Positions 1 to 17,485 of a DNA stretch of 64,000 nucleotides are shown one piece after another. Position numbers and translations under genes: made by a program. A model generated the notes under the pieces. That model saw only the letters and a program-made list of their open reading frames with translations, was not told where the DNA came from and ran no database searches. Source of the DNA: an uncultured Opitutia bacterium (GTDB lineage Bacteria > Verrucomicrobiota > Verrucomicrobiia > Opitutales > Opitutaceae); NCBI GenBank assembly GCA_903862955.1, contig CAIPAH010000013.1, positions 1-64,000 on the forward strand, written 5' to 3'. The first letter of the stretch is position 1, and each line of letters opens with the position of its first letter.

Positions 1-40
1 ATCTTTATCGCGGAAACGCGAAAGAGCGAAAGCTTGGAGA

Positions 41-77
41 CGACGCAGGCCGGGACCGCGGGTCCCGGCCTGCGTCG
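41..77. repeat. Perfect GC-rich hairpin, 17-bp arms
   Basis: Bases 41-57 are exactly reverse-complementary to 61-77 across a 3-base loop. Looser inverted flanks of the cgcgaaa type sit outside it (about 17-32 and 89-105), so it looks like one of the dispersed palindromic elements seen elsewhere in the window. It lies 64 bp past the stop codon of the multihaem cytochrome gene. No T-run follows on either strand, so it is a poor intrinsic terminator, although it could still stabilise a transcript end. Confidence 0.75.
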
Positions 78-140: not shown

Positions 141-1625
141 TTACTTCTGGATGCCGCCGTTGTGGCAGTCGGAGCAGGTCAGGTCGGGATCGAGGTCGCC
201 GCCGGGGTGCTGGAAGGTCTGGCCCTTGGCGTTGAGGAGCTCGAACTCGGCGCCCTTGCCCTGCGCGAGGATGGTGTGGCACGAGTTGCAATCACTCGAG
301 CGCACGGCTTCGCCGCCGGGCGTCTTGTGCTTGTCGTCGTGGCAGCGGAAGCAGCCGGGCCAGTCCTTGTGGCCGATGTTGTTGGGGTAAACGCGCCAGT
401 CGGCTTTGCGCTCGGGGAAGATGGTGACGGAGAAGATGCGCTGCACCTCGGTGATCGTGGCGGGGAGTTCCGGCGCGCCGGCGTATTTCGCCGAGAGATA
501 GTCGGCGATTTTCTTCGGGGCGGCGTCCGCGGTGGTGATTTCCTTCTGGAGCATCGCCTTCACGGCCTCGCGCTTGATGTTGGGCAGACGGGTGCTGAGC
601 GTGCCGGCGGCGAGGGACTTTTCCACGGCCTCGTTGGCGGTGGGGAACATGTGGGCCGGCCGGTTGTGGCAGTCCATGCAGTCCATCGTGCGAATCAGCG
701 CGGGCGGCGGTTCACCCTTGAACGACTCGATGCGGTAGACGCGGGAGGTGCCGTCGACCTTGTTGGTCACGCGCATCCAGGGGATGTCCTGCCGCTTCTC
801 GTCGATGGCGTAATACTCGACCTTCTCCTTAAGGTTGACGTGCCAGTGGATGCCGCCCTCGGGACTGCCGGCGCGGGTGGTGTTGACGCGGAGGAGGAGG
901 CGGACGCTGTAGGGCGTGTTGCCCTTGTCGGAGAGGTAGTGGTCGAAGTTAACGTCGATGTTGCCGTGGAACTTCTCCGGCCAGTGGCACTTTTCGCAGA
1001 TGTCCTGCGCCGGCCGCAGGTTCTTGATCGGGGTGGCGATGGGGCGGTTGTAATTGTTCAGCGTGTAGGCGATCAGCTGGTGGGTGCCATTGATCTTCGC
1101 CTTGATGAACCACTCGGCGCCCGAGCCGATGTGGCAGTCGACGCAATCCACGCGGGCGTGGGCGCCGCGCTGGTAGGCGACAAACTCCGGGTTCATGGCC
1201 CGGTGGCAGACCTGGCCGCAGAACTGGACGGACTCCGAATAGTGATAGGTCTCGTAGCTGCCGAACACGCTGAGCAGCAGGAAGAGAATGCCACCGACGG
1301 AGAAGAGGATGATGAAGCGCCGCTGCCGGGGATCCTCAAAGCGCAGCTGCCAGCGTTCCGGGGCGCCCGCGTATTTGATGGCGTAGCGGCGCTGCAGCCA
1401 GGCGCCACCGAAGACCGCCACCAAGCCGGTGATCAGGAAACCGGGGGCGACGATGTAGGTGAAGATGCCGAGATACGGGTTCTTGTCCCCGGACGTGAAG
1501 TCCACCCACACCAACAGCGCGAACGAGAACAACGCTCCGACCGCGAGGACGGCGCCGGCGGCGCTGATCCAGTTGTTGAAGTGCGAGCGGGGTTTGTTGG
1601 GCTTGGTCGGGATGGGGGCGGACAT
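141..1625 (-). CDS. Seven-haem membrane-anchored cytochrome c (NapC/NirT-like)
   Basis: A 494-residue protein with three N-terminal membrane segments (about 17-41, 52-76 and 103-122) followed by a periplasmic multihaem domain. Haem sites are C161-C164-H165, C210-C213-H214, C316-C319-H320, C425-C428-H429, C446-C449-H450 and C484-C487-H488. An N-terminal variant site has three residues between the cysteines (C136, C140, H141), followed by RAM and then NPEF, as in NapC/NirT-like proteins of metal-reducing bacteria. It probably passes electrons between the quinone pool or the hydrogenase and periplasmic acceptors. It is last in the hydrogenase gene row, 89 bp after a small cytochrome c gene. The role is inferred from context; the family call is strong. 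Confidence 0.88.
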   Translation of the reverse strand: MSAPIPTKPNKPRSHFNNWISAAGAVLAVGALFSFALLVWVDFTSGDKNPYLGIFTYIVAPGFLITGLVAVFGGAWLQRRYAIKYAGAPERWQLRFEDPRQRRFIILFSVGGILFLLLSVFGSYETYHYSESVQFCGQVCHRAMNPEFVAYQRGAHARVDCVDCHIGSGAEWFIKAKINGTHQLIAYTLNNYNRPIATPIKNLRPAQDICEKCHWPEKFHGNIDVNFDHYLSDKGNTPYSVRLLLRVNTTRAGSPEGGIHWHVNLKEKVEYYAIDEKRQDIPWMRVTNKVDGTSRVYRIESFKGEPPPALIRTMDCMDCHNRPAHMFPTANEAVEKSLAAGTLSTRLPNIKREAVKAMLQKEITTADAAPKKIADYLSAKYAGAPELPATITEVQRIFSVTIFPERKADWRVYPNNIGHKDWPGCFRCHDDKHKTPGGEAVRSSDCNSCHTILAQGKGAEFELLNAKGQTFQHPGGDLDPDLTCSDCHNGGIQK

Positions 1626-1714: not shown

Positions 1715-2041
1715 TCAGGACTTGAACTTGCGGATGTAGGCGACGAGGTCGGTGACTTCGGCGGGAGTCAGGTCCGTGTAGGCCTTCATCTTGTCCTTGC
1801 CCGTCTTTTCGTCCTTCACGCCTGCGGAGATGGCTTTGGCCATGTCAGCGTCCTTCAGATCAGCCTGCACCTTGGCATCGGTGTAATCCTTGATGCCGAG
1901 TTTCTTGCCGGTCTTGGTTTGACCCTTGCCGTCCGCACCGTGGCACTTCTGGCAGTTGTTTTCCCAGTTTTCCGAGGCGGGAGCAGCGTAGCCGATGGCG
2001 GCGCCGAGGAGGAAGAGGCAGGCGATAGCTTTGATTTTCAT
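1715..2041 (-). CDS. Small periplasmic class I cytochrome c
   Basis: A 108-residue protein with a cleavable signal peptide (about 1-20, ending in YAAPA). It has one haem site, C30-C33-H34, and a likely axial methionine at M85 in a DKMKAY segment. The C-terminal helix is of the usual type. The size fits a soluble mono-haem electron carrier of the cytochrome c553/c6 kind. It lies between the hydrogenase maturation protease gene and the seven-haem cytochrome on the same strand. A role carrying electrons to or from the hydrogenase is plausible but inferred from position. Confidence 0.85.
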   Translation of the reverse strand: MKIKAIACLFLLGAAIGYAAPASENWENNCQKCHGADGKGQTKTGKKLGIKDYTDAKVQADLKDADMAKAISAGVKDEKTGKDKMKAYTDLTPAEVTDLVAYIRKFKS

Positions 2042-2187: not shown

Positions 2188-2730
2188 TCAACCGACCGCG
2201 ACGGCGTGAGTGGAGGCAAGCAAACCCGCATGCGTCCGGACGAGCCGGGCGACTTCCGGCACGCTCGAGGCGACCGCGGGGCAGAGCTGGGTGCACATCG
2301 GGCGGATCTCCTCGACGGAAAGGGTGTAAAGATGGAGGTCGGGCAGCCGGCCGATCAGGGCGGCGGCGGCAAACAGGTCCTTGAGGCCGAAGTCATGCGC
2401 GCCGAGGCCCCGGGGCAGATCGCCGACCCGCTGGGGATGAAGATAGGTGATGCTGCCGGCAGTCCGGCCGTCGCGCGTCGCATCGATGAGGACGATCGCA
2501 TCCACGCCCTCGAACTCCGTCAGGAGATTGACGCCGCCGGTGCCGCCATCGAGCAGGCGCACGCCGGGGAGGACGGGCTGTTGCTCGAGAAGCCGCAGGA
2601 CGTGGACGCCCACGCCCTCGTCACCCATCAGGACGTTGCCGATGCCGAGGATCAGGACGCGCGCGCCGGGGGTGTCGGCGCGCGGGTGAGCGTAGGCCTC
2701 GCCCTGCAGGGTGGAGTCGAGCAGCAGCAT
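2188..2730 (-). CDS. hyaD: Hydrogenase maturation protease (HyaD/HupD family)
   Basis: A 180-residue endopeptidase of family M52, which removes the C-terminal peptide of the [NiFe] large subunit after nickel insertion. The motif GIGNVLMGDEGVG (about 29-41) is diagnostic, and the nickel-sensing ligands are E38, D83 and H112. The substrate is encoded two genes upstream; its predicted cleavage follows H559 of the large subunit. The gene starts 6 bp after the cytochrome b stop codon, so it belongs to the same operon. About 15 N-terminal residues before the conserved core are atypical, and a slightly later start is possible. Confidence 0.93.
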   Translation of the reverse strand: MLLLDSTLQGEAYAHPRADTPGARVLILGIGNVLMGDEGVGVHVLRLLEQQPVLPGVRLLDGGTGGVNLLTEFEGVDAIVLIDATRDGRTAGSITYLHPQRVGDLPRGLGAHDFGLKDLFAAAALIGRLPDLHLYTLSVEEIRPMCTQLCPAVASSVPEVARLVRTHAGLLASTHAVAVG

Positions 2731-2736
2731 GTCCGA

Positions 2737-3498
2737 TTAGGGCAGCGGCGCCGATTTCCGGGCGGGGAGAGGCGCGGTTTTCTTGGCGGGGAAGGCGGAC
2801 ATCCCGGTGGCTTGCTCGACCTCGATCTGCCCCTTCTCCATGAATTTCCAGCCGCCGACGATCGACGAGATGACGCCGTGGCCCTCGACGTAATCGTGGT
2901 AGAACACGAGGTAGACGTGGACGACGGTGAACACCGCGAAGACCCACAGCGCCGAGTAGTGGAACATGCGGAGCGTGGCTTCACTGCCGAAGAGCGGCAC
3001 GACCCACGTGAAGAGCCGGGGGAACCAGGAACTGCTGGTCGGCGCGTAGAGCGCAAAGCCGGAGATGATTTGGAAGATCGTGAGCAGGCCCGTGGCCGTG
3101 TAGGTGAAATACGCCATCGAGTTGTGGCTCAGCGTCTCGACCGGCTTGTTGCTGAACTGGAAGATATCCACCTTCAGCACGTCCCAGATCTGCCGCAGCT
3201 GCGCCTTGGTGAGCGGGAAGAAGCCGCGCCAGTTCGCATACTTGTTGCCCATGAAGGACCAGTAGAGCCGGAAGGCAAAATTGGCCATGAACACATAGGC
3301 GGTGAGGAAGTGGATGAAGCGCACCGTGCCGAACCAGTAGCTGAAGGACGCTTCCCGCGAGTTCATGAGCGCGGGCGGATGGGCGATGAGAAAGCCCGTC
3401 ACCCCGAGCACCACGATGCAAAGGGCGTTGATCCAGTGGAACCAACGCACCGGCTGCTCCCAGACGTAAACGCGCTGGTAGTCGTGTGAGCGATTCAT
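2737..3498 (-). CDS. hyaC: [NiFe] hydrogenase b-type cytochrome subunit
   Basis: A 253-residue integral membrane cytochrome of the HyaC/HupC family. Four membrane segments are visible, with candidate haem-b histidines in RWFHWINA, RFIHFLTAY, RMFHYSALW and the VHVYLVFYH segment. It anchors the hydrogenase dimer to the periplasmic side of the membrane and passes electrons from the small subunit's distal cluster to quinone. The gene starts 10 bp after the large-subunit stop and is followed after 6 bp by the maturation protease. The C-terminal tail is basic, proline-rich and low in complexity. Confidence 0.92.
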   Translation of the reverse strand: MNRSHDYQRVYVWEQPVRWFHWINALCIVVLGVTGFLIAHPPALMNSREASFSYWFGTVRFIHFLTAYVFMANFAFRLYWSFMGNKYANWRGFFPLTKAQLRQIWDVLKVDIFQFSNKPVETLSHNSMAYFTYTATGLLTIFQIISGFALYAPTSSSWFPRLFTWVVPLFGSEATLRMFHYSALWVFAVFTVVHVYLVFYHDYVEGHGVISSIVGGWKFMEKGQIEVEQATGMSAFPAKKTAPLPARKSAPLP

Positions 3499-3508
3499 GG
3501 TGGCGCCT

Positions 3509-5236
3509 TTATTTCACCATCAGCTCGTGATGCGCGACCTCGGCGCCGTCCTCGTAGAGGTGAACGGCGCAGGCGAGGCAGGGGTCGAACGAGTGGATGG
3601 TGCGAATGATTTCGAGGGGTTGCTTCGGGTCATGGACCGGCGTGCCGATGAGGGACGCCTCGTAGGCGGAACGCTGGCCCTTCGCGTCGCGCGGGGACGC
3701 GTTCCACGTGGACGGGACGACCAGCTGGTAGTTGTCGATTTTTTTATCCTTGATGACGATCCAGTGGGCGAGGGCGCCGCGGGGTGCCTCGCTGGTGCCG
3801 ACGCCCTTGGCCTCGGCGGGCCAGGTGGACGGTTCCCACTTTTCCTTGGTGAAGGTGCGGGTGTCGCCGGCCTTGATGAGGGCAAGGAGGCTGTTGAAGA
3901 ACTCCAGGCCCCACTTGGCGGTGAGCCGGGCCTCGATGCCGCGGGCGGCGGTGCGGCCGAGCGTGGAGAAGAGCACGGACGGCGGCGCATTGAGCGCGCC
4001 GAGTGCCTCGAGCACGGCTTCCTTGATCTCGGTCTGGTTGCCGGCGAAGCCGACGAGCATGCGCGCGAGCGGGCCGACCTCCATGGCGTGGCCCTTCCAG
4101 CGGGGCGTCTTGAGCCAGCTGTATTTCTCGTCGACGTTGAGATTCTGATACGGCGTCTTCGGGCCGGTGTATTTCAGGTTGGTTTCGCCCGACCACGGAT
4201 GGCGGCCGCCGGTGGTGGCGCCGTCCTTGTAGTCATACCAGGAGTTGTCGATGAACTCCTCGATGCCCGTCTGCGTGTCCTTCGGGTCCACCGGATGGAT
4301 CTCCGCGAGGTTGCGCCCGAGGATGGCGCCGCGCTGGAACTTGTAGCTCGCGAGGTTGTTGAAGCCCGCGGTCGGCAGGTCGCCGTAGCACAGGTAATTC
4401 TCCAGCCCGCCGCCGATCCCGGCCCACTCGAGGTAGTAGGGCGCGATGGCCAGGAGATCGGGGTAGTAAACCTGTTCGACGAAGTCGCGTGCATTCTGAA
4501 GGAGCTGGCCCACGAGGGCCAGCCGCTCCGAGTTTATGGCGTTGGCTTCGTCGAGATTGATGGAGCAGGGCATGCCGCCCACGAGGTAGTTGGGGTGCGG
4601 GTTCTTACCGCCGAACACGGCGTGCACCTTCACGATCTCCTTCTGCCACTCCAGTGCCTCGAGATAGTGCGCGACGCCGATCAGGTTGATCGCGGGCGGC
4701 AGCTTGAAGGCGGGATGGCCCCAGTAGGCGTTGGCGAAAATGCCAAGCTGGCCGCTGGCGACGAAGCCCGTCAGGCGCTTCTGCAGGTCGGCGAAGTAGG
4801 CCGGCGAGCTTTTCGGCCAGTGGGAGATGCTCTGCGCGATGCGCGAGGCCTCGGCGGGGTCGGCCTTGAGGGCGCTGACGACATCGACCCAATCGAGCGC
4901 GTGCAGGTGGTAGAAGTGCACGACGTGGTCCTGCACGTTCTGCACGCAATACATGATGTTGCGGATCAGCTCGGCGGCCGGCGGGATCTTGATGCTGAGG
5001 GCATCTTCGACCGCGCGGACGGAGGCGAGGGCGTGCACCGTGGTGCAGACGCCGCAGACGCGCTCGCAGAAGGCCCAGGCGTCGCGGGGGTCGCGGCCTT
5101 TCAGGATGATTTCCAAGCCGCGCACCATGGTGCCGGCGCTCCAGGCGTCCACGATCTTGCCGTCCTTCACTTCGGCCTCGATGCGGAGGTGGCCCTCGAT
5201 GCGGGTGACGGGATCAACGACGATTCGGTTGCTCAT
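3509..5236 (-). CDS. hyaB: [NiFe] hydrogenase large subunit
   Basis: A 575-residue catalytic subunit that splits or forms H2 at a Ni-Fe(CN)2CO centre. The first nickel-binding motif is R59-V-C61-G-V-C64 followed by TTVHALAS, and the second is DPCLACAVH with C553, C556 and H559. The 16 residues after H559 are the peptide removed by the M52 protease encoded downstream. It pairs with the Tat-signal-bearing small subunit encoded 20 bp upstream and is exported with it. The TTVHAL motif and length fit group 1 membrane-bound uptake hydrogenases. Confidence 0.96.
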   Translation of the reverse strand: MSNRIVVDPVTRIEGHLRIEAEVKDGKIVDAWSAGTMVRGLEIILKGRDPRDAWAFCERVCGVCTTVHALASVRAVEDALSIKIPPAAELIRNIMYCVQNVQDHVVHFYHLHALDWVDVVSALKADPAEASRIAQSISHWPKSSPAYFADLQKRLTGFVASGQLGIFANAYWGHPAFKLPPAINLIGVAHYLEALEWQKEIVKVHAVFGGKNPHPNYLVGGMPCSINLDEANAINSERLALVGQLLQNARDFVEQVYYPDLLAIAPYYLEWAGIGGGLENYLCYGDLPTAGFNNLASYKFQRGAILGRNLAEIHPVDPKDTQTGIEEFIDNSWYDYKDGATTGGRHPWSGETNLKYTGPKTPYQNLNVDEKYSWLKTPRWKGHAMEVGPLARMLVGFAGNQTEIKEAVLEALGALNAPPSVLFSTLGRTAARGIEARLTAKWGLEFFNSLLALIKAGDTRTFTKEKWEPSTWPAEAKGVGTSEAPRGALAHWIVIKDKKIDNYQLVVPSTWNASPRDAKGQRSAYEASLIGTPVHDPKQPLEIIRTIHSFDPCLACAVHLYEDGAEVAHHELMVK

Positions 5237-5256: not shown

Positions 5257-6396
5257 TCAGGGTTTGACGGAGGGCGGGGTCGGGGGCGTGGCTTTTTCGC
5301 CGGGCTGCTCGCCGATTTCCTCGTGTTTGCGGAAATTCGTGAGCACTGCGTGGGTCAGCGCGCCCGCGGCCACGACGCCGCCGACGGTGAGGCCGACCTT
5401 GTCGGCGGTGGCCTCGATGCCGAAGCCCGGGAAGTTCGTGAGCCGCTGGTAGAACGGCCCGTTGTCCCAGAACTTGGCCTCGGAACAGCCGATGCAGCCG
5501 TGGCCCGACTGGATCGGGTAGCTGGTCCCGTTGTTCCACTTCATCGTGCTGCAGGAATTGTAGGTGGTCGGGCCCTTGCAGCCGACCTTGTAGAGGCAGT
5601 AGCCCTGGCGCGCGTTCTCGTCGTCGAACGTCTCGACGAACAGGCCGGCGTCGTAATTGGCGCGGCGCGCGCAGGTGTCGTGGACGCGGCGGGAGTAGAA
5701 CGCCTTGGGGCGGCCGAGGCTGTCGAGCTGCGGCAGGCGGTCGAAGGTGAGCACGTGCACCAGCACGCCGGCCATGACCTCGGCGATGGGCGGGCAGCCC
5801 TGCACGTTGATCACGGTCTTGTCCTTGAGGATCGCGCTGACCGGCATGGCTTGCGTCGGGTTCGGGTTGGCGGCCTGCACGCAGCCCGCGCTGGCGCAGT
5901 TGCCCCACGCGATGATGGCCTTCGCCCCCGCGGCGACCTCGCGCACGGTGTCGAGCGCGGACTTGCCGGCGATCACGCAATACGCGCCGTCGGCGCCGAG
6001 CGGGATCGAGCCCTCGATGAGCAAGAGATACTCGCCTTTGTATTTGGTGATCGTCTCCTGGAGAATTTCCTCGGACTGGAAGCCCGCGGCCGCCTGCAGG
6101 GTCTCGGTGTAATCCAGTGAAACCTTGTCCAAGAGGATGTCCGCGACGATCGGGTGTGACGAGCGCAGGAACGACTCGCTGCAGCAGGTGCACTCCTGGA
6201 AATGCATCCACACCACCGGCAGCCGGCGCTTGGTCTCGATCGCGTGGGCGATCTGCGCGGTGGCGCTGTGTTCGAGTCCGAGATACGCGCCCATCCAGGC
6301 GCAGAACTTGAGGAAGTCGCGGCGATCAACGCCACGGGAGACCATCTGTTCGTAAATCGTGGGCACGGTCTCGTTCATTTTCGTCAGTGAATTCAT
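5257..6396 (-). CDS. hyaA: [NiFe] hydrogenase small subunit, six-Cys proximal cluster
   Basis: A 379-residue electron-transfer subunit. I chose the ATG at 6396 because it gives a normal Tat signal (RRDFLKFC, R25-R26) about 25 residues in; the open frame extends upstream to 6561 but that extension looks non-coding. Proximal-cluster cysteines are C69, C71, C72, C167, C172 and C201. Their spacing equals C17/19/20/115/120/149 of E. coli Hyd-1 (offset 52), meaning an O2-tolerant [4Fe-3S] site. The distal cluster ligands H239 and C242 fit the same offset. A C-terminal membrane helix (about 334-352) anchors it to the HyaC cytochrome. Confidence 0.95.
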
Positions 6397-6617
6397 AGCG
6401 GGAATTTTTCCGTGGGAGGAAGACGACGGGGTGGGATAACGTTGGGGAGAAGATCGGGGTGATTGCCGATCCGCCGGGGAACTGGGGTAGGGCCACACTC
6501 TAAAATAAAACCGCGCGGGGGGTTGTGCGGTTATTGGGAAAGGATGAGCAAATCTTGTCATTTCGGCGTGTTCACTGGACGCGCTCGCGCGATGCGCATC
6601 TATTGCTCAACATCCCC
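6397..6617. promoter_or_regulatory. Divergent hyaA / hypA intergenic region
   Basis: This 221-bp gap separates the hydrogenase structural operon (minus) from the hyp/nickel operon (plus), so both promoters should lie here. An AT-rich patch at about 6501-6512 stands out from the surrounding GC-rich DNA. I see no convincing FNR box, no strong sigma-70 promoter and only a weak sigma-54-like GG-N10-GC at 6535-6550. Regulation by oxygen, H2 or nickel cannot be read from the sequence. Confidence 0.5.
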
Positions 6618-6962
6618 ATGCACGAACTCGGCATCATGGAATCCGCCGTTGACGCAGCCCTGCGTGAGGCGCGCGCGCACCAGGCGAGCCGGATTCACCG
6701 GATGGTGCTGCGCATCGGGACGCTCTCCGGCGTCGAGCCGGATTCGCTGCGGTTTGCCTTCGACGTGGTGACGGAAGGCACGGCGGCTGCCGGTGCGCAA
6801 CTCGAGGTGGAATCCGTGCCCGCCCGCGCGTGGTGCGCGGCGTGCGCCCAGGAATTTGGCGTCGAATCCGGCTTCATCTACGTCTGTCCCCACTGCGGCC
6901 GCCTGTCCGGCGAGGTCCGGCAGGGCCACGAGATGGAGCTCTCGCGTCTCGAAATGTCCTGA
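6618..6962 (+). CDS. hypA: Hydrogenase nickel insertion protein HypA
   Basis: A 114-residue metallochaperone that works with HypB to deliver nickel to the hydrogenase large subunit. It begins MHELGIMESA, whose H2 is the conserved nickel ligand; this fixes the start at 6618 rather than the upstream ATG at 6525. A structural zinc site is formed by C73, C76, C90 and C93. It is the first gene of the hyp-nik operon and is followed after 6 bp by hypB. Confidence 0.96.
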   Translation: MHELGIMESAVDAALREARAHQASRIHRMVLRIGTLSGVEPDSLRFAFDVVTEGTAAAGAQLEVESVPARAWCAACAQEFGVESGFIYVCPHCGRLSGEVRQGHEMELSRLEMS

Positions 6963-6968
6963 ACCCCC

Positions 6969-7772
6969 ATGAACCCCACCCCTGAAATTACCCCTGCGGA
7001 CGAGTGCCAGATTCATCCGCTCAGCGGCGCCGCCGCCCGCCCGGGTCGCCTGCTGTCCGCCCCGCTCGCCGCCGAAGTTTCGGCCACCCTGGCTGCCGGT
7101 CCCGATGGCGGCGCCGCCGTGCGCGCCGTCGACCTGCGCGTGCCGCTGCTCGAAAAAAACGACATCCTCGCCGAGCGCAACCGCGGCTACTTCCTCGGCC
7201 GCGGCCTTGTCGCGCTCAACCTCGTGTCCTCGCCCGGCTCCGGCAAAACCACGCTGCTCGAGCGCACGCTCGACGAATTCGGCCGGCAGACCAAGTGCGC
7301 CGTCGTCGTGGGCGACCTCGAGACGGACAACGACGGTCTCCGCCTCCGCCGCGCCCATGCGCCCGTCGCGCAGATCACCACCGGCGGCACCTGCCACCTC
7401 GACGCCTCCATGGTCGCGCGCGGCGTCGAGTCGCTCGACCTCGAGGGCGTCAAGATCCTCTTCATCGAGAACGTCGGCAACCTCGTGTGCCCCGCGTCCT
7501 TCGACCTCGGCGAGCAGGTCCGCGTCGTGCTCCTCTCGTGCACCGAGGGCGAGGACAAGCCGCTGAAATACCCGCCGATCTTCAAGTCCGCCAACCTCGT
7601 GCTCCTGACGAAGGTGGACATCGCCGACGCCCTGGGCTTCAAGCGCGACGTCGCCGTCGAGAACATCCGCCGCATCGCGCCCACGGCGCGGCTCATCCAG
7701 CTCTCCAGCCGCTCGGGCGAGGGCGTCGCGGAGTGGCTCGATTACCTCCGCTCCCTCAATCCCCAGCGTTGA
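6969..7772 (+). CDS. hypB: Hydrogenase nickel incorporation GTPase HypB
   Basis: A 267-residue SIMIBI-class GTPase that powers nickel transfer from HypA to the large subunit. The P-loop is SSPGSGKTT (residues 87-95), and the conserved metal-site segment TGGTCHLDASM lies around residue 140. The N-terminal region lacks the poly-histidine nickel store seen in some HypB proteins. It has no obvious Shine-Dalgarno sequence; the leader is TGAACCCCC before the ATG. It is in the middle of the hypABFCD row. Confidence 0.96.
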   Translation: MNPTPEITPADECQIHPLSGAAARPGRLLSAPLAAEVSATLAAGPDGGAAVRAVDLRVPLLEKNDILAERNRGYFLGRGLVALNLVSSPGSGKTTLLERTLDEFGRQTKCAVVVGDLETDNDGLRLRRAHAPVAQITTGGTCHLDASMVARGVESLDLEGVKILFIENVGNLVCPASFDLGEQVRVVLLSCTEGEDKPLKYPPIFKSANLVLLTKVDIADALGFKRDVAVENIRRIAPTARLIQLSSRSGEGVAEWLDYLRSLNPQR

Positions 7773-7785
7773 ACCTGCCCCCGCC

Positions 7786-10104
7786 ATGGCCTCGCTCGCC
7801 CACGAAACCGATGTGCTCTTCCGCGTTCGCGGCATCGTGCAGGGCGTGGGCTTCCGTCCGTTCGTCCAGCGCGCCGCCGCGCGATTGAGCGTGCGGGGCT
7901 GGGTGCAGAACGACCGCGAGGGCGTGCTCATCCGCGCCGTCGGGCCGCCGGCCGCCGTCAGCTCCCTCCTGCGCGCCCTGCGCACCGAGGCGCCTCCTGC
8001 AGCCCGAATCGCCCTGGTCGAGCCGCAGCCGGCCGACGCCTCCACTACGCCGGCGGGAGTGGGCTTTGAAATCATCGCGAGCGGCCCGGCCGGCCTGACG
8101 GTGTCCGCCGCCGTGCCGCCCGACCTCGCGTTGTGCGCCGATTGCCGGCGCGAGCTGCTCGACCCGGCGGATCGCCGGCATCGCTATCCCTTCATCAACT
8201 GCACGCAGTGTGGCCCGCGTTATTCCATTCTCGAAGGGCTGCCCTATGACCGGCCGCGCACGACGATGCGCGCGTTTCGCATGTGCCCGGAGTGCGAGTG
8301 CGAATACATTGACCCGACCGACCGCCGCTTTCATGCGCAGCCCAACGCCTGCCCGGTTTGCGGGCCGCAGGTCACCCTGACCACGCCCGCCGGGCGCACG
8401 CTGCGCACTGGCGATGCCGCGGTGACGATCGCGGCGGACCTGCTGCGCGACGGCCTCGTGCTCGCGGTCAAGGGCGTCGGCGGATACCATCTCATGGCGG
8501 ACGCGACGTCCGAGTCGGCCGTAGCGGAACTCCGGCGCTGCAAGCATCGCGAGGAGAAACCCTTCGCCGTGATGTTCCGCGACCTCGCCGCCGTGCGCGC
8601 CGAAGCGGAAGTCTCGGAGGCCGCCGCGCAATTGCTCGCTTCGCCAGCCGCCCCGATCGTCCTCCTGCCGCGCCGCCCGGACGGCGCACTGGCGCAGGGC
8701 ATCGCCCCGGGCAACCCGTGGGTCGGTGCGCTGCTGCCGTATGCGCCGCTGCAGGTCCTGTTGCTCGAAGCGATCGGGCGGCCCCTTGTGGCCACGAGCG
8801 CAAATCTTGCGGACGAGCCGCTCTGCATCGACGCGGCCGAGGCGCACGTGCGGCTGGCGGACATCGCCGACGCCTTCCTCGACCACGACCGGCCCATCTC
8901 GCACCCGGTGGACGATTCAGTGCTGCGCCTGGCAGAGTCCGGCCCCGTGTTGCTGCGGCGCGCCCGCGGTTGGGCGCCGGCGCCGTTGACGCTGCCGTCG
9001 TCGCTTGGGGGCCGCTGGCTCTGTGTCGGCGCGCAAATGAAGAACACCATCGCCGTCGCGAGTGGCACGCAAGTCGTGTTGAGCCCGCACATCGGCGACC
9101 TGGGCGGGGCTGCGACGGTGGGAGTTTTCCGCCGGACCGAAAAAATGCTCGGGAAGCTGCTCGGCGCGGAATTCACTGGAGTCGCGTGCGACAAGCACCC
9201 GGATTACGCCTCGACGCGGCACGCGCAGCAGATGGGGCTGCCCATCACCGCGGTGCAACACCACTTGGCTCACGTGCTCGCATGCCTGCTGGAAAACCGG
9301 CGCGCGGCCGACGGCGTGCTCGGCGTGGCGTGGGATGGCACCGGCTACGGCGAGGACGGCACGGTCTGGGGCGGCGAATTTCTCCTGCTCGAGAAGGGCG
9401 AGGCGAGCCGGTTTGCCCGGCTGCGGTCGTTCCGGCTCGCAGGCGGCGACGCGGCCGTGCGCGATCCCCGGCGCGTGGCGCTGGGACTGCTCTACGAGAC
9501 GAAGGACGCGCGCTTCGGTGAACTGGCCCGCCAATTCGGCCTGCTGGGCGGCGACGCGACGATTTTACAAACCATGCTGCAGCGCGGGCTCAACGCGCCG
9601 GTCACCACGAGCGCCGGGCGGCTGTTCGACGCCGTGGGCGCGCTCCTCGGATTGGGCGTCCGCAATCGTTACGAGGGCCAGACACCCCTCGCTGTTGAGG
9701 CTGCGGCCATCCGCGGGTCGGATTCTGCGCCTGAGTTTTCGCTGCCGGTGAAGTCCCTGGCAGCTGGCGGCGGTGCCCGGCTCGAGCTCGACTGGCAGCC
9801 GCTCCTCGAAAGACTTTTGGCGCAACGCGGGTCGGGACAGGACACCGCCGGCTTGGCCTTCGCGTTTCATGTGGCCCTCGCCCGCGGCATCGTGGACATC
9901 GCGCAGCGCGCCGGCGTCGGCACGGTCGCGCTGTCGGGCGGCTGTTTCCAGAACGTGCTTTTGCTGGATCTCACCGTGGCGGCGTTGCACGCGGCGAAAT
10001 TCGAAGTCCTCACGCACCGCGAACTTCCCCCCAACGACGGCAATATCGCCGCCGGCCAGGCGCTCGGCGCGCTCTGGGGCCTCACCTCCGTCGCCGTTCC
10101 GTGA
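7786..10104 (+). CDS. hypF: Carbamoyltransferase HypF
   Basis: A 772-residue enzyme that makes the thiocyanate precursor of the active-site CN ligands from carbamoyl phosphate, transferring it to HypE. Domain order: acylphosphatase-like (GIVQGVGFRPF, residues about 13-23), two zinc fingers with CADC, CTQCG, CPEC and CPVCG, a YrdC-like domain, and a Kae1-like domain. The Kae1-like domain carries VQHHLAH, WDGTGYGEDG and SGGCFQN. The length matches the family (about 750). It lies 13 bp after hypB and 22 bp before hypC. Confidence 0.97.
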   Translation: MASLAHETDVLFRVRGIVQGVGFRPFVQRAAARLSVRGWVQNDREGVLIRAVGPPAAVSSLLRALRTEAPPAARIALVEPQPADASTTPAGVGFEIIASGPAGLTVSAAVPPDLALCADCRRELLDPADRRHRYPFINCTQCGPRYSILEGLPYDRPRTTMRAFRMCPECECEYIDPTDRRFHAQPNACPVCGPQVTLTTPAGRTLRTGDAAVTIAADLLRDGLVLAVKGVGGYHLMADATSESAVAELRRCKHREEKPFAVMFRDLAAVRAEAEVSEAAAQLLASPAAPIVLLPRRPDGALAQGIAPGNPWVGALLPYAPLQVLLLEAIGRPLVATSANLADEPLCIDAAEAHVRLADIADAFLDHDRPISHPVDDSVLRLAESGPVLLRRARGWAPAPLTLPSSLGGRWLCVGAQMKNTIAVASGTQVVLSPHIGDLGGAATVGVFRRTEKMLGKLLGAEFTGVACDKHPDYASTRHAQQMGLPITAVQHHLAHVLACLLENRRAADGVLGVAWDGTGYGEDGTVWGGEFLLLEKGEASRFARLRSFRLAGGDAAVRDPRRVALGLLYETKDARFGELARQFGLLGGDATILQTMLQRGLNAPVTTSAGRLFDAVGALLGLGVRNRYEGQTPLAVEAAAIRGSDSAPEFSLPVKSLAAGGGARLELDWQPLLERLLAQRGSGQDTAGLAFAFHVALARGIVDIAQRAGVGTVALSGGCFQNVLLLDLTVAALHAAKFEVLTHRELPPNDGNIAAGQALGALWGLTSVAVP

Positions 10105-10126: not shown

Positions 10127-10396
10127 ATGTGCCTCGCTGTCCCCGGTAAGATTGTTGAAGTGCTAGGCGATGACCCGCTGCTCCGCGCCGCGAAGGTCAG
10201 CTTCGCCGGTGTCGTCAAGTTGATCAGCCTCACCTGCACGCCCGAGGCGAAATTGGGCGACTATGTGCTCGTCCACGTCGGCGTCGCCATCAGCACGATC
10301 GACCCGAAGGAGGCCGAGGAAACCTACCGCTATCTGCAGGCGATGGGTGAACTCGACGGGCTCGACGTCCCCCCGCCCGTCATGTCCCCGCCATGA
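10127..10396 (+). CDS. hypC: Hydrogenase assembly chaperone HypC
   Basis: An 89-residue chaperone beginning [12 protein letters not shown], the family signature; C2 binds the Fe(CN)2CO unit. With HypD it forms the platform on which iron receives its CN and CO ligands, then carries the unit to the large subunit. Its stop overlaps the hypD start by 4 bp (ATGA), suggesting translational coupling of the two partners. Confidence 0.96.
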
Positions 10397-11505
10397 AATA
10401 CGTCGACGAATACCGCAACGCGGCGCTCGTCCGCACGCTGGCCGGCGCCATCACGCGCGCCGTCACCCGGCCCTGCACGATCATGGAAATCTGCGGCGGC
10501 CAGACGCACGCCATCGTCAAGTTCGGTCTCGATGAACTGCTGCCGCCCAGCCTGACGCTCGTGCACGGTCCCGGCTGCCCGGTCTGCGTGACCAGCGCCG
10601 ACTTGATTGACCAGGCCGTCGAGCTGGCGCTGAAGCACAACGTCATTCTCTGCTCGTTCGGCGACATGCTGCGGGTGCCGGGCAACGGCATTGACCTGCT
10701 CACGGCCAAGGCGCGCGGCGGTGACGTCCGCATTCTCTACTCGCCGCTCGATGCCGTGACGCTCGCCAAGGAAAATCCCGGCCGACAGGTGGTGTTCTTC
10801 GCGGTGGGCTTCGAGACGACCGCGCCGGCGAACGCGATGTCGGTGCTCCGCGCGGAGCGCGAGGGCGTGAAGAATTTCTCCATCCTCACGTCGCACGTGC
10901 TGGTGCCGCCGGCGATGCGCGCGATCCTCAGCGCGCCCGACAACCTCGTGCAGGGCTTCCTCGCCGCCGGGCATGTCTGCACGATCATGGGCACCCAGGA
11001 ATACGGCCCGATCGCCCGCGAGCACGGCGTCCCCATCATCATCACGGGCTTCGAGCCGGTGGACATCCTCGAGGGGATTTTGCTCTGCGTGAAGCAGCTC
11101 GAGTCCGGCCGCGCCGAAGTCGAGAACGCCTACGCGCGCGCCGTGCGGAGCGAGGGCAACGTCCATGCGCGGCGCATCGTGGAGCAGGTGTTCGAAATCT
11201 CCGACCGCGACTGGCGCGGCCTCGGCGTCATCCCGCGCAGCGGGCTCGCGTTGCGGCCGGAATACCTCGGCTACGACGCTGCGCGCCGGTTTAAACTCAC
11301 CGCCGCGCGCGCCAACTGCGTGACCGAGTGTATCAGCGGCGAAATCATGCGCGGCTTGCGGAAGCCGCACGACTGCCCGGCGTTCGGCACGCGCTGCACG
11401 CCGGAGCACCCGCTCGGCGCGCCCATGGTTTCCAGCGAAGGCGCTTGCGCCGCGTATTACCGCTACCGCAGCCGGGCCCTCGCAACGGCTGAGGCGAAGG
11501 GTTAG
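10393..11505 (+). CDS. hypD: Hydrogenase formation protein HypD
   Basis: A 370-residue [4Fe-4S] scaffold for assembling Fe(CN)2CO. The active region MEICGGQTH (C34) and the redox pair in GPGCPVC (C62, C65) are present, as are C-terminal cysteines in [16 protein letters not shown] that ligate the cluster. It overlaps hypC by 4 bp. A 54-bp AT-richer spacer separates it from the nickel importer genes. Confidence 0.97.
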
Positions 11506-11559: not shown

Positions 11560-12519
11560 ATGCATATCCCAGATGGATTCTTGGACGCCAAGACCGCCCT
11601 CGTCACGGGCGGGTTGTCGGCTGCGGGTCTCGGGTATGCGCTGCGTTCGGTTCGTTTGGAGCTGCCGCCGCGTCGCGTGCCGCTGCTGGGCTTGGCTGCA
11701 GCGTTCCTGTTTGCCGCGCAGATGGTCAACTTTCCGGTGCTCGGAGGCACCTCGGGCCATCTCGTCGGCGGGGCGTTGGTCGCGGCGTTGCTGGGGCCGG
11801 CGGCTGCCGTCGTGGTCGTGTCGACGGTGCTCATCGTGCAATGCTTTCTTTTCGCCGACGGCGGCGTGATGGCGCTCGGGGCGAACATTTTCAACATGGG
11901 GCTCGTCTCGACGTTCACCGGCTACGCGATTTTCCGGCTGGTCGCACGCGTGTTGCCGGGACTTCGCGGGCAGGTGGCGGCGCTGGCCTTCGCCGGCTGG
12001 TGTTCGACGGTTCTCGCGTCCATCTCGTGCGCCGGCCAGCTGGCATGGTCCGGCACAGTCGCGTGGCGCGTGGGTTTGCCCGCGATGGCGGGAGTGCATG
12101 CCTTGATCGGGCTGGGAGAGGGCGCGGTCAGCGCGCTCGTGTTCCTCGCGATTGTGCGGACGCGGCCGGATCTGCTGCCCGAGCGAGCAACCGCGGGATT
12201 CGCGCCGGCGAAGGTGCGTGAATTTGTCGTGCTTGGCCTGCTTACGGCGCTGGGCGTGGCGTTGTTCGTCGCGCCGTTCGCGTGTCCGTGGCCGGACGGG
12301 CTCGAGTCCATCGCGGCAAAGTTGGGTTTCGCGCACCGCGAGTGGAGCCCGCTGATCACTTCGCCCGTGGCGGATTATCACGTGCCGGGTTTGGCCTCGC
12401 CGGGTGTGTCCACGGCGCTGGCCGGCGCGCTGGGCGTGCTGGTCGTGTTTGGCCTCGCGATCGGTTTCAGCCAGCTGGTGGTGCAAAAGCCGGCGCGCGT
12501 GCCAGCTAATTCGCGATGA
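11560..12519 (+). CDS. nikMN: ECF nickel transporter, fused NikM-NikN substrate subunit
   Basis: A 319-residue membrane protein of the CbiM/NikM family. It begins MHIPDGFLD; the free N-terminus and H2 bind Ni(II) or Co(II). About seven to eight membrane segments are visible. The C-terminal part carries a PDGLE motif (from P245) and a final helix, so the NikN/CbiN-like component is fused on, a layout known for nickel types. Substrate is taken as nickel because the gene is flanked by hyp genes and no cobalamin gene or riboswitch is nearby. It overlaps the next gene by 4 bp. Confidence 0.88.
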   Translation: MHIPDGFLDAKTALVTGGLSAAGLGYALRSVRLELPPRRVPLLGLAAAFLFAAQMVNFPVLGGTSGHLVGGALVAALLGPAAAVVVVSTVLIVQCFLFADGGVMALGANIFNMGLVSTFTGYAIFRLVARVLPGLRGQVAALAFAGWCSTVLASISCAGQLAWSGTVAWRVGLPAMAGVHALIGLGEGAVSALVFLAIVRTRPDLLPERATAGFAPAKVREFVVLGLLTALGVALFVAPFACPWPDGLESIAAKLGFAHREWSPLITSPVADYHVPGLASPGVSTALAGALGVLVVFGLAIGFSQLVVQKPARVPANSR

Positions 12520-13139
12520 TGGCCCTGTTTCCCCAACCCTTCGCGTCCGCTGACCCGCGCCGCTTCGGCCCGGTGTCGCGCTGGCCTGCAGCGGTGAAAC
12601 TTGCCGCCGCCCTCGTGCTCGTTGGCGGAACTGCGCTCGTCCCCGCCGGCTGGTCGGCGTGGTTTGTCGGCGTGGGCGTGGTGCTCGTGGCGGTGATGCT
12701 CGCAGGCCGGATCGCGCCTGGCCCGTTGCTGCTGCGGCTGCTTGCGCTTTCCCCGTTCATCGCCGGCGTGGCGCTGGCGGCGGCGTGGCACCGGAGCGGC
12801 GCGCTGGACTGGAGAATCATGGCGCTGCGCAGCGGGCTGTGCCTTGCGACGGTGATCCTGCTGGCGTCGACAACGCCCTTCGGCGAACTGCTCGCGGTCC
12901 TGCGCCGCGCCCACGTGCCGGCGCTGCTGGTGACGACGCTGGCGCTGATGCAGCGCTATCTTTTTGTGCTCGGCGACGAGAGCGAACGCATGAACCGGGC
13001 GCGCGCGAGCCGGACGTTCAACCGCAGCCGTTGGCTGGCCTGGCGCACTGCGGCGACGGTGGTCGGGCAATTGTTTGTGCGCGCCTCCGAGCGGGCCGAG
13101 CACGTCTACGACGCCATGTGCGCGAGGGGCTGGCGATGA
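12516..13139 (+). CDS. cbiQ: ECF transporter transmembrane protein CbiQ/NikQ
   Basis: A 207-residue T-component that couples the ATPase to the substrate-binding subunit. It has about five hydrophobic segments. The coupling-helix region ERMNRARASRTF and the C-terminal MCARGWR match the family's two conserved arginine-containing motifs. The start overlaps the preceding stop (ATGATG), and its own stop overlaps the ATPase start, so all three importer subunits are translationally linked. Slightly shorter than typical CbiQ (about 225-260). Confidence 0.87.
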   Translation: MMALFPQPFASADPRRFGPVSRWPAAVKLAAALVLVGGTALVPAGWSAWFVGVGVVLVAVMLAGRIAPGPLLLRLLALSPFIAGVALAAAWHRSGALDWRIMALRSGLCLATVILLASTTPFGELLAVLRRAHVPALLVTTLALMQRYLFVLGDESERMNRARASRTFNRSRWLAWRTAATVVGQLFVRASERAEHVYDAMCARGWR

Positions 13140-13894
13140 AACCTGCCATCGACATCCGCGACCTGCGCTACACCTATCCCGACGGGACGGTGGCGTTGCA
13201 CGATGTCTGCCTGTCCGTCGGTCCGGGTGAGTGCGTCGGCCTGTTAGGTCCCAACGGCTCCGGCAAATCGACTCTGCTGCGTCACCTCAACGGCATCCTG
13301 CCGGAGCGGCTCACCGATCGCGGCGGCGCGGTGGCGATTCATGGCGGCACGATCACCAGCGAGAACGTCGCCCAGATCCGCCGTTCGGTCGGCCTGATGT
13401 TCCAGGACCCCGATGACCAGCTTTTCTGCGCCACGGTGCGCGAGGACGTAGCGTTCGGTCCGCAGCAACTGGGCCTGGCGCCCGCCGAGGTGGAATCGCG
13501 CGTGCAGGCGGCGCTCGAGGAAGTCGGGCTTGTGCATCTCGGCTACCGGCCGCCGCATCATCTCAGCAACGGCGAGAAGCGCCGCGCCTGTCTCGCGGGC
13601 GTGCTCGCGTGCGAGCCCACCATTCTCGTGCTGGACGAACCGACCAGCGGGCTCGACCCGCGCGGACGCCGCGAGCTGATCGCGCTGCTGCGCCGGATCA
13701 AGGCCACGCTGCTGATCGCCACGCATGATCTCGAGCTGGTCGTCGAACTCTGCCCGCGCTCCGTGATTCTCGACGGGGGCCGCGTCATGGCCGACGGCGT
13801 GACCACGACATTGCTGGCCGACGAGGCGCTGATGCTGGCGCACGGGCTCGAGTGCCCGCACATCCTCCAGCACCGCCACCCGCACTCGGGTTGA
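13136..13894 (+). CDS. cbiO: ECF transporter ATPase CbiO/NikO
   Basis: A 252-residue ABC ATPase that drives nickel uptake. Walker A is GPNGSGKST (38-46), the signature is LSNGEKRRA (from 143) and Walker B is LVLDEPTSGLD (D167, E168). The H-loop is ATHDLE. The longer open frame from 12659 is an artefact of high GC; the ATG at 13136 overlaps the CbiQ stop by 4 bp and gives the correct N-terminus. It converges on hypE, with only 3 bp between the stops. Confidence 0.93.
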   Translation: MKPAIDIRDLRYTYPDGTVALHDVCLSVGPGECVGLLGPNGSGKSTLLRHLNGILPERLTDRGGAVAIHGGTITSENVAQIRRSVGLMFQDPDDQLFCATVREDVAFGPQQLGLAPAEVESRVQAALEEVGLVHLGYRPPHHLSNGEKRRACLAGVLACEPTILVLDEPTSGLDPRGRRELIALLRRIKATLLIATHDLELVVELCPRSVILDGGRVMADGVTTTLLADEALMLAHGLECPHILQHRHPHSG

Positions 13895-13897
13895 GGT

Positions 13898-14992
13898 TCA
13901 GCAAATCCGGGGCAGCTGCTCGCCGCTGAGCCGGTCCACAATCCGCTCGGCGCCGATCACGCTGCGCTGTGTTACCTGGCCGGCGGGGCCGGCGTCCACG
14001 TGCCCGATCACCGCCGGCGGCCCGCCAGGCGCCGTCTTGGCAATGATGGCGAGCGCTTCCGCCGCCTGTGCGGCCGGCACAAGGCACACGAATCGGCCCT
14101 CGTTGGCGACGTAGAGCGGGTCGAGGCCGAGGATTTCACAAGCGCCTTGGACCAGCTCGGACACGGGAATCTTCGCGGCATCGACGGCGATGGAGAGTTT
14201 CGACGACTCCGCGAGTTCGACGAGGGTCGTGGCCAGGCCGCCGCGCGTGAGATCGCGCAGGCAGTGGATTTCGAGGCCGGATTGCAGCAGCGCCTGCACG
14301 GGCGCCACGAGCGGCGCGCAGTCGCTCACGAGCGCGCTTTCGAATTCGAGCCCGGCGCGCGTCGCCATGATGGCCATGCCGTGCCGGCCGATGTCGCCGC
14401 TGAGGATCACCGCGTCGCCCGCGCGGATGCTCGCGGGCGCGATGGTTAGTTTCGTTTCGATGACTCCGACGCCCGCCGTCGTGACGTAGAGGCCGTCGCC
14501 CTTGCCGCGTTCCACGACCTTGGTGTCGCCGGTCACAATGCTCACGCCAGCGACGACGGCCGCGGCCTTCATGGACGCGACGACCTTTTCCAAGGTGGCG
14601 ATGGGAAAACCTTCCTCGAGGACGAACCCCGCGCTCAGCCACAGCGGCCGGGCGCCGCACATGCAGAGGTCGTTGACCGTGCCGTTGACCGCGATTTCGC
14701 CGATGTCGCCGCCGGGAAAGAAAAGCGGGCTCACGACATGGGAGTCCGTGGTGAACGCCAGGCGCGTGCCATCGGGCAGGCGGAGCAGGGCGCCGTCGTG
14801 CTGGGCCTCGAGGGCGGGATTGGCAAACGCCGGCCGGAAAACCCGGTCGATCAACTCCTGCGTCAGGCGTCCGCCCCCGCCGTGGCCGACGGTGATTTCC
14901 GTCCGGTGGGACAGCGGCACGGGGCAGCTGAGACCGGATGAGGGCGGGGTGGGCGGGGTGGGCGGGGTGGCCATGGCCCGAAACTGACTCAT
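13898..14992 (-). CDS. hypE: Carbamoyl dehydratase HypE
   Basis: A 364-residue enzyme that dehydrates the carbamoyl group, received from HypF on its C-terminal cysteine, to thiocyanate. The protein ends PRIC, the universal HypE tail whose Cys is modified. The GHGGGGRLT segment near the N-terminus is also typical. It completes the hyp set but is inverted relative to hypABFCD. The start is uncertain: ATGs at 14992 and 14974 both precede a proline-rich TPPTPPTPP stretch encoded by a nine-base tandem repeat, absent from most HypE proteins. Confidence 0.95.
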
Positions 14993-15179
14993 AATGTTGG
15001 CCGCTGCCAGCAGTTTGCGGCTTTCCCACAATCGCCGCCCAAAGGTGCGCAAGAAATGCGCAGCCGGGCCTCGGTTTTTCGGCCATTTTAGGTAAGTTCA
15101 ATGTTACGGAAGCCTGTCGGACTCAGCGTCTGGCGGGTTGCCAGCCTCTCGTTTCCCTCTACCAACTCTTCCTTTTCCC

Positions 15180-16324: not shown

Positions 16325-17485
16325 ATGCCCACCTTGCTCCGCGATCTCCGGGACCTGCTGGTCTCGCTCAAACTGACGGTCCTGCTGATCGTTTTCTCCA
16401 TCGTCCTCATCCTGGCCGCGACCATCGACCAGGTGAATCTCGGCATCTGGGCGGTGCAGGAGAAATATTTCCACACCTTCGTGGTGTTCTGGAAAATCGG
16501 CAACGTGTCGCTCGCGGTGTTCCCGGGCGGCTACACCATCGGCGGCCTGCTGCTGATCAACCTCCTCGGCGCGCATTTCTACCGCTTCAAGCTCACGTGG
16601 CGCAAAACCGGCATCTGGCTGGCGCACGCCGGCCTGATCCTCCTGCTCGTCGGCCAGCTGCTCACGGGCCTTTGGCAGGATGAGTTCCAGCTGCGGCTCG
16701 ACCAGGGCCAGAGCAAGAACTACGCGGAGAGCTACCGCAACGTGGAGCTGGTGCTCACGGACACGACGGACCCCAAGTTCGACGAGGTCGTCGCGATTCC
16801 CGAAAAGCCCCTCGCGCGCCTGGAGACGGTGCAGCACCCCAAGCTGCCGTTCCGCGTCGCGGTGAAGACGTATTTTCCCAACGCCACGCTGGCCATGCGC
16901 GGTCCCATGCAGCCGGCGGATCCGTCCGCGCCCGCCACGCAGGGCGTCGGGCCGCAGGTGCTCGCGACGCTCCAGCCGCTCACCTACAAGCAGGATGAGC
17001 GCAACATTCCCGCCGCCTACATCGAGTTGATCGGCCCGGATGGTTCGCTCGGCACGTGGCTGGTCTCGCCGCTGCTCGATGAGCCGCAGCGCTTCGCCTT
17101 TGCCGGCCGCAACTGGAAGATCGCGCTGCGCTTCGTGCGGAGCTACCAGCCTTACACGCTCACGCTGCTGAAGTTCAGCCACGACCGCTACGCCGGCACG
17201 GACATCCCGAAGAATTTCTCCAGCCGCATCCGCCTGACGACGCCCGACGGCCGCGACGATCGCGAAGTGCTGATCTACATGAACAACCCGCTGCGCTATG
17301 CCGGGATGACGTTCTACCAGGCGGGCTTCGAGAACAACGACCAGACGACGGTGCTCCAGGTCGTGCGCAACCCCAGCTGGCTCATTCCCTATATCGCGTG
17401 CGCGCTGATGACGGTCGGGCTCCTCATCCAATTCGGCATCCACCTCACCGGCTTTTTCGCCCGCCGGCGCGTGGTCGCGGCGTAA
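16325..17485 (+). CDS. resB: Cytochrome c biogenesis protein ResB (Ccs1)
   Basis: A 386-residue System II component. It has three N-terminal membrane segments (about 13-33, 67-80 and 95-118), a large periplasmic domain, and a C-terminal helix around 350-375. The segment NNPLRYAGMTFYQAGFE is characteristic of ResB. With CcsA it forms the haem exporter and ligase that attaches haem to CXXCH apocytochromes. It starts 5 bp after the duplicated-domain lipoprotein and is followed after 16 bp by ccsA. Its likely clients include the two c-type cytochromes beside the hydrogenase. Confidence 0.92.
   Translation: MPTLLRDLRDLLVSLKLTVLLIVFSIVLILAATIDQVNLGIWAVQEKYFHTFVVFWKIGNVSLAVFPGGYTIGGLLLINLLGAHFYRFKLTWRKTGIWLAHAGLILLLVGQLLTGLWQDEFQLRLDQGQSKNYAESYRNVELVLTDTTDPKFDEVVAIPEKPLARLETVQHPKLPFRVAVKTYFPNATLAMRGPMQPADPSAPATQGVGPQVLATLQPLTYKQDERNIPAAYIELIGPDGSLGTWLVSPLLDEPQRFAFAGRNWKIALRFVRSYQPYTLTLLKFSHDRYAGTDIPKNFSSRIRLTTPDGRDDREVLIYMNNPLRYAGMTFYQAGFENNDQTTVLQVVRNPSWLIPYIACALMTVGLLIQFGIHLTGFFARRRVVAA

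Follow-up and report, generated by a model that had tools for sequence, protein, structure and literature searches.

Does a six-cysteine proximal site in the small subunit of an uptake [NiFe] hydrogenase imply that its host oxidizes hydrogen with oxygen? The question is raised by a locus of an uncultured Opitutaceae bacterium, contained in a stretch of 64,000 nucleotides (the window) that belongs to a genome of 3.61 Mb in 31 contigs, 100% complete. A sequence-only reading had taken the small subunit for a member of the O2-tolerant, membrane-bound group 1d, with cysteines numbered as in E. coli HyaA, and had suggested aerobic or microaerobic H2 oxidation in this lineage.

The small-subunit gene lies on the minus strand, the plus-strand frame over the same interval being ruled out by the stop codons inside it. 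Its 379-residue translation contains a Tat motif read from the sequence (RRDFLKF), cysteines at positions 69, 71, 72, 167, 172 and 201, and a C-terminal hydrophobic helix at residues 334-352. Subtraction of 52 places the cysteines at 17, 19, 20, 115, 120 and 149 and the distal ligands His239 and Cys242 at 187 and 190, the same offset fitting all eight residues. In phmmer searches against solved structures, residues 53-366 were aligned without gaps to residues 1-314 of HoxK (5mdj_S, E 2e-136, 458 bits), and the range 53-370 was matched to 1-318 of Hyd-1 with an identical offset, as judged by the ranges only (3uqy_S, E 5e-131, 440 bits). Since both alignments keep the offset of 52, the shared numbering reflects homology and not chance; Cys71 and Cys172 match the extra cysteines of HyaA and HoxK, which confirms the six-cysteine site and the distal pair as originally proposed. 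Other solved small subunits scored 408 bits (4c3o_B, which we take to be Salmonella Hyd-5), 324 bits (3myr_A, presumably from A. vinosum) and about 270 bits (Hyd-2), and identity reaches 57% to the Rhizobium enzyme and 55% to a Salmonella plasmid enzyme. Across 111 aligned small subunits, from the window and 110 loci, both supernumerary cysteines occur in 91 sequences, E. coli HyaA being one of them, and 20 sequences lack the pair; Methylovirgula, Alteromonas and E. coli HybO have glycine at both sites. The six-cysteine site very likely holds a [4Fe-3S] cluster.

The same alignment reveals a seventh cysteine beside the proximal site (CACxGC, residue 169) in 15 of the 111 rows, where the window has serine. 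It is present in nine of the ten loci that belong to the window's order or are titled Opitutae or Opitutaceae (all but the window) and in six Bacteroidota-side loci, with five changes at this residue on the 78-row tree described below.

The small-subunit gene is followed on the same strand by those for the large subunit, the b-type cytochrome and the protease (Table 1), with gaps of 20, 10 and 6 bases; the monohaem cytochrome c gene beyond them has intergenic spaces of 146 and 89 bases on its two sides. The hyp genes diverge from the small-subunit gene across 128 bases. The large-subunit gene is the sole PF00374 match found in the genome; a second [NiFe] large subunit, such as that of an H2 sensor, was looked for and not found. 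The hypE product matches loci L088 and L004, each with an annotated hypE, at 293 and 347 bits in BLAST. In the frame with the ABC ATPase of the Ni/Co transporter, the ATPase domain extends from residue 180 on, and the true start probably lies later than the one tabulated. No tRNA genes and no Rfam matches at gathering scores were found within the window. Farther along it are a gene for a large protein that combines a lipase maturation factor (LMF1) domain with Sel1 repeats (22334-25309, minus strand) and a gene of the FdhD/NarQ family (42706-43542, plus strand), the latter a hint that a formate dehydrogenase may be encoded in another part of the genome.

Table 1. Hydrogenase locus of the window: positions, strands and supporting matches
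Feature	Position	Strand	Evidence or remark
Contig end	1..54		Reverse complement is exactly the first 54 bases of contig C19
Inverted repeat at contig break	38..80		Arms 38-57 and 61-80, 20 bases each
NapC/NirT/NrfH-type membrane multihaem cytochrome, ImcH-like layout	141..1625	-	PF03264 3.9e-10; NrfH model 3.4e-13, below cut-off
Small monohaem cytochrome c	1715..2041	-	PF00034 4.1e-12; one CXXCH
Maturation protease, HyaD/HycI type	2188..2730	-	PF01750 3.6e-12
b-type cytochrome subunit, HoxZ/HyaC type, quinone link	2737..3498	-	PF01292 2.1e-27
[NiFe] hydrogenase large subunit	3509..5236	-	PF00374 4.6e-230
Hydrogenase small subunit, HoxK/HyaA type	5257..6396	-	Tat signal, six-Cys proximal site, C-terminal membrane helix
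hypA	6525..6962	+	PF01155 7.1e-34
hypB	6969..7772	+	PF02492 1.1e-20
hypF	7786..10104	+	PF22521, PF01300, PF07503, PF17788, PF00708
hypC	10127..10396	+	PF01455 1.3e-24
hypD	10393..11505	+	PF01924 9.9e-152
CbiM-type Ni/Co uptake, PDGLE domain	11560..12519	+	PF01891 6.8e-57
CbiQ-type Ni/Co transport	12516..13139	+	PF02361 4.4e-26
ORF with ABC ATPase of Ni/Co transporter	12659..13894	+	PF00005 6.2e-30
hypE	13898..15052	-	AIRS and AIRS_C domains
ResB-like cytochrome c assembly protein	16325..17485	+	PF05140 1.9e-19
CcsA-type cytochrome c assembly protein	17502..19364	+	PF01578 1.1e-22

To place the enzyme, a tree was built from 78 of the 111 small subunits, with columns 71, 169 and 172 removed and three distant rows as the outgroup. 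A single clade (support 99/94) contains all 59 six-cysteine rows together with four nested four-cysteine flavobacterial rows, 63 in total, and splits into two sister lineages. One of them, the classical side (15 rows, 100/98), has Rhizobium, E. coli, C. necator and Methylacidiphilum-like rows among its members. The other, of 48 rows (92/82), is the window's clade and includes Bacteroidota, Verrucomicrobiota, Acidobacteriota, Ignavibacteriota and others; 'Methylacidiphilum-like' and, below, 'Akkermansia-like' are provisional labels on rows of the same class, guessed partly from relationship. By this tree, the window's enzyme belongs to a lineage separate from the classical HoxK/HyaA one. In the available text of the respective papers, HydDB files a Phaeodactylibacter and a Kryptonium under group 1d (PMC5037454), and Parabacteroides is assigned to 1d and Akkermansia to 1f (PMC12578642). 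Relatives from all three of these 1d groups share the window's clade, among them a Phaeodactylibacter MAG (L033) and a Kryptoniota MAG (L029) that are not the same records as those of HydDB. Because the six-cysteine small subunits form one clade even without the trait columns, and because HydDB files the same groups under 1d, assignment of the window's enzyme to group 1d is supported and the original claim is borne out, in a broad sense. The six cysteines, the small-subunit clade, the Tat signal, the b-type cytochrome and the HyaD-type protease, the last two being group 1d features encoded in the operon, are common to the window and to C. necator HoxKGZ, E. coli HyaABC and Salmonella Hyd-5. 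The enzyme type is already known, and is encountered here in a less studied subclade.

The four nested small subunits (L070, L073, L081 and L084) are from Flavobacteriaceae or Flavobacteriales, with glycine encoded at each of the two supernumerary sites. Closest to them are the six-cysteine rows L032, L043 (Lutimonas) and L066, and the large-subunit tree gives the same six-cysteine neighbours for the three of these loci with a large subunit in the set; by their position in the trees they are a natural double reversion. The C19G/C120G variants constructed in C. necator, described in the accessible part of PMC10583674, have a natural equivalent in this subclade. Three loci of the window's class (L138-L140) have Gly/Ser at the supernumerary sites, a b-type cytochrome match and a common long stem branch in both trees; they possibly represent the Akkermansia group 1f.

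At the other end of the operon the hydrogenase genes run on into cytochrome genes resembling those for electron export. The ImcH-like protein has three predicted transmembrane segments, six CXXCH motifs and one CX3CH motif, and the inverted repeat after its gene is probably a terminator. The contig of the window (C13) probably continues in contig C19, as indicated by the 54-base overlap and by the gene order of L008, an uncultured Opitutae MAG in which the hydrogenase and the whole cytochrome set lie on one contig, with 13-haem and 11-haem genes after a six-CXXCH cytochrome. C19 opens with the 13-haem gene, whose product is 81% identical to the L008 copy and has a clear cytochrome b561-like part (PF01292 3.4e-9, above the cut-off); the corresponding part of the 11-haem protein is weak (PF01292 3.9e-4, below the cut-off). 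Next come genes for two monohaem cytochromes c, a tetrahaem cytochrome, a DsrO-like Fe-S protein (NF045797 4.8e-51, below the cut-off), a DsrP-like NrfD protein with a cNMP domain (NF045798, 415 bits, cut-off 350), a protein with several TM segments, a DmsE/MtrA-like cytochrome and a barrel-like protein. The DmsE/MtrA-like cytochrome contains seven CXXCH motifs and matches TIGR03508 (3.5e-45, 154.5 bits, below the cut-off of 192.2) and, at 9.5e-29, 6r2q_A, which we take to be MtrA of an MtrCAB complex. The barrel-like protein (12719-14926 of C19) has 736 residues and no transmembrane helix; proteins of this kind end in a C-terminal Leu or Phe, and their gene, a probable porin gene, adjoins the MtrA-like gene in all ten stretches that show it (nine genomes).

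Comparison with the Geobacter and Shewanella systems is by description. The available text of PMC6295460 gives ImcH three transmembrane segments and seven haem motifs, defined as CX2CH, a layout that the NapC/NirT-type protein of the window shares but for the spacing of one motif, and gives CbcL nine haems and a HydC/FdnI-like part; both large C19 proteins likewise fuse a multihaem N-terminal half to a b-type membrane half, with 13 and 11 CXXCH motifs versus 9. The DmsE/MtrA-like cytochrome, with its seven CXXCH motifs, is a candidate counterpart of MtrA, and the adjoining barrel, a putative counterpart of MtrB, is not recognized by any profile. In contrast to those systems, the set has a hydrogenase operon attached; by the same text, no mtrAB lies next to imcH there. 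Among the titles and abstract beginnings listed in literature searches, none describes a hydrogenase linked to genes of extracellular electron transfer in Opitutaceae.

The proximity is maintained among relatives. An ImcH-like gene lies at most 14 kb from the small-subunit gene in all six small-subunit-positive genomes of the family (window included) and in L008, in three arrangements. In L008 (G523), G469, G315 and G325 the cytochrome set lies beyond the protease end of the hydrogenase genes; in G144 and G507 it is on the hyp side, about 13-14 kb off. In each of the ten stretches that show both, from nine genomes, no more than about 12 kb separates the ImcH-like gene from the MtrA-like and barrel genes. 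Among the 27 family genomes searched for both genes, a strong ImcH-like match is present in 5/5 with a small subunit versus 6/22 without (one-sided Fisher p 0.006, a value that is too small because the genomes are related, with the non-matching genomes partly deduced from tables giving only part of the misses). Since those six carry an ImcH-like gene, it and the hydrogenase are neighbours and not an obligate unit, and since three of the six, L173-L175, combine an ImcH-like gene with MtrA-like and barrel genes, the cytochrome set also exists independently. A scan of the loci L004-L087 and L130-L144 found frames with at least three CXXCH motifs only in L008, L065, L131-L133, L142 and L144, the Bacteroidota 1d loci differing from the window in having none; the scan covers limited flanking stretches and did not reach the set of L130 and L134, 13-14 kb away. 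The frame in L144, a locus from another family of the order, encodes an 8-haem protein of 744 residues (2596-4827) near the hydrogenase on the opposite strand, and gave no BLAST match to the window's cytochromes.

From what the sequences show (residues, phylogeny, order and presence of genes) we infer the cluster type, the O2 tolerance, the electron path and the acceptor, and these can be combined in one reading, to which we assign a probability of roughly 0.6: a group 1d uptake hydrogenase with a linked cytochrome route to an extracellular acceptor, and with oxidases serving in air. The Tat-exported, membrane-bound enzyme would oxidize H2 on the periplasmic side and pass the electrons through the b-type cytochrome to the quinone pool. 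The linked multihaem cytochromes of ImcH-like and CbcL-like type would re-oxidize the quinol, and the electrons would travel over small c-type cytochromes, cross the outer membrane in an MtrA/MtrB-like conduit and reach the extracellular acceptor. Under air they could go to the aa3 and cbb3 oxidases, and the extra cysteines would protect the enzyme from O2 where oxic and anoxic zones meet. This reading draws on the six cysteines and their offset, the small-subunit clade and the accompanying genes for cytochrome b, protease, Hyp proteins and Ni/Co uptake; on the contig overlap, the single-contig set of L008 and the preserved ImcH-like proximity; and on the ResB and CcsA assembly genes on the hyp side and the two oxidases. 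Against it stand the ImcH-like genes in genomes without the hydrogenase; the barrel-like protein, which matches nothing among Pfam, NCBIfam and PDB sequences; the absence of an identified MtrC-like cytochrome at the cell surface; the spacing of 146 and 89 bases around the cytochrome c gene; and two loci, L144 of the same order and L009, that show no such cytochrome set in the flanking stretch, the contig of L009 ending there.

The chief competitor holds that this is an ordinary group 1d enzyme delivering electrons to O2 in a Knallgas-type, aerobic or microaerobic metabolism, and that the adjoining cytochrome cluster is unrelated. The six-cysteine site and its clade are what such an enzyme would have, as are the terminal oxidases: the genome encodes an aa3-type CtaD and a fused cbb3 CcoNO, both above cut-offs, in addition to a partial second CtaD at a contig start and a weak CcoN-like frame. 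Cytochrome bd was considered and has no match in the genome. The occurrence of ImcH-like genes in 6 of 22 small-subunit-free genomes also agrees with an unrelated cluster, but the closeness of that gene to the hydrogenase, kept through three arrangements in six family genomes and L008, does not; nor do the missing HyaE and HyaF families, or relatives of the enzyme in gut genera. We consider this explanation unlikely, if still a serious one. As aa3 and cbb3 oxidases are encoded, O2 is a possible electron sink, and the aerobic or microaerobic H2 oxidation suggested at the outset stays possible to that extent; the gut genera, the absent helper families and the linkage to genes of extracellular electron transfer speak against it as the whole account. 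Because the hydrogenase genes continue into electron-export-like cytochrome genes, oxygen is probably not the sole sink. The six-cysteine signature alone does not establish O2 as the acceptor, and HydDB itself, in the available text, ascribes to group 1d electron input for both aerobic respiration and oxygen-tolerant anaerobic respiration (PMC5037454). Most likely, H2 uptake would feed a quinone pool that is drained to extracellular acceptors or to O2.

The reverse interpretation makes the enzyme an anaerobic respiratory hydrogenase that has kept its six cysteines by descent, and that has little O2 tolerance in the cell for want of the known aerobic maturation helpers. Here the window's side departs from HoxKGZ, HyaABC and Hyd-5, beyond forming a separate subclade: none of the 15 window-clade genomes searched gave a match to HyaF/HupH (PF04809), as against 6 of 6 classical-side genomes, and the window's genome has neither this family nor that of HyaE (PF07449). 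With C. necator and E. coli accessory proteins as BLAST queries (E up to 1e-5), HoxO, HoxQ, HoxR, HoxT, HyaE and HyaF have no match in 76 window-side loci, 48 of them placed by the tree, 28 by similarity only, and 14 being under 10 kb. HoxV, which presumably resembles the large subunit, was excluded from this count, having weak matches of 43-50 bits in 6 of the 76. On the classical side, HyaF/HoxQ matches occur in 17 of 19 loci, L078 having none of the accessory set and L006, whose stretch is cut, only HoxO. HoxR is tied to correct bridging of Cys19 under air in C. necator, according to the available part of PMC10583674, and this together with the empty counts and the Parabacteroides members of the clade would suit an anaerobic enzyme. 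However, 8 of the 19 loci on the classical side, E. coli hya included, likewise lack HoxR, so its absence is no proof and the clean difference between the two sides is HyaF/HupH; the known helpers may have unknown replacements, and the retention of both extra cysteines across the clade, except in one subclade without either, suggests selection. We regard this interpretation as improbable. In the available text of PMC5037454, the HyaE/HyaF accessory genes lie outside the HydDB definition of 1d. The window's clade presumably either uses other helpers or matures its enzyme at low O2. The preferred reading, an uptake hydrogenase with a linked extracellular route, can be extended more tentatively, and on balance doubtfully: in Opitutaceae a six-cysteine hydrogenase may feed a full quinone-to-outer-membrane route of ImcH-like, CbcL-like, DsrOP-like and MtrAB-like parts for H2-driven extracellular respiration where O2 fluctuates, and the entire clade, centred on Bacteroidota and Verrucomicrobiota, may build its cluster by an undescribed route without HyaE/HyaF helpers.

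The large subunit was the yardstick proposed by the sequence-only reading, and it agrees, if weakly. Its tree, of 75 rows (L017, L019 and L073, with the gene broken or missing, were omitted), recovers the same window clade as the small subunit (45 rows, 100/99.8), and the best topology joins this clade to the classical side, although with support of only 70/92; in AU tests, grouping of the window clade with 1e rows (p 0.42) or with Akkermansia-like rows (p 0.32) is not rejected. Group 1e enzymes have a four-cysteine proximal site and accompanying Isp1/Isp2 genes. High large-subunit similarity connects the window's enzyme with this group, but the gene order is different, and the four rows labelled 1e here (L005, L091, L092 and L161; a provisional label, given partly from gene order) have four-cysteine small subunits; the window has six cysteines, and Pfam named no Isp-type gene among the frames tested at the locus. 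A mosaic of a 1d-like small and a 1e-like large subunit, for which speak the AU result and the best large-subunit score against a solved structure (776 bits to 3myr_B, which we take to be A. vinosum, followed by 4c3o_A at 749, Hyd-1 3uqy_L at 679 and HoxG 3rgw_L at 641), is very improbable, and outright 1e origin is disfavoured, given the small-subunit tree, the gene content, the adjacent subunit genes, a best large-subunit tree that holds the six-cysteine enzymes together and the clade shared by both subunits.

A six-cysteine clade without HyaF/HupH makes it testable which helpers a [4Fe-3S] cluster needs and which serve only one lineage, and the genes for extracellular electron transfer next to the operon caution metagenome surveys against equating an O2-tolerance signature with aerobic metabolism.

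The enzyme is patchy within the order: PF14720 was detected in 3 of 177 genomes sampled from it, and a small-subunit match of some kind in 40 of 387 sampled from the phylum, six of the 40 (window included) being from the window's family at 70-100% identity. The closest small subunits, among the best 80 of 592 matches, are those of L008 (87% identical) and of L009, an Opitutaceae MAG (74%). Parabacteroides and other gut genera, which are anaerobes, are also represented in the window's clade. In the accessible part of PMC4486115, the CFB group has only six-cysteine enzymes, and four Firmicutes four-cysteine enzymes are placed in the six-cysteine group. The Parabacteroides locus L004 has the same short operon as the window; its source is a 57.7-kb plasmid record of Parabacteroides distasonis (NZ_OY725764.1) that carries this operon of the window's clade together with hyp genes, and its small subunit is 66% identical to that of the window.
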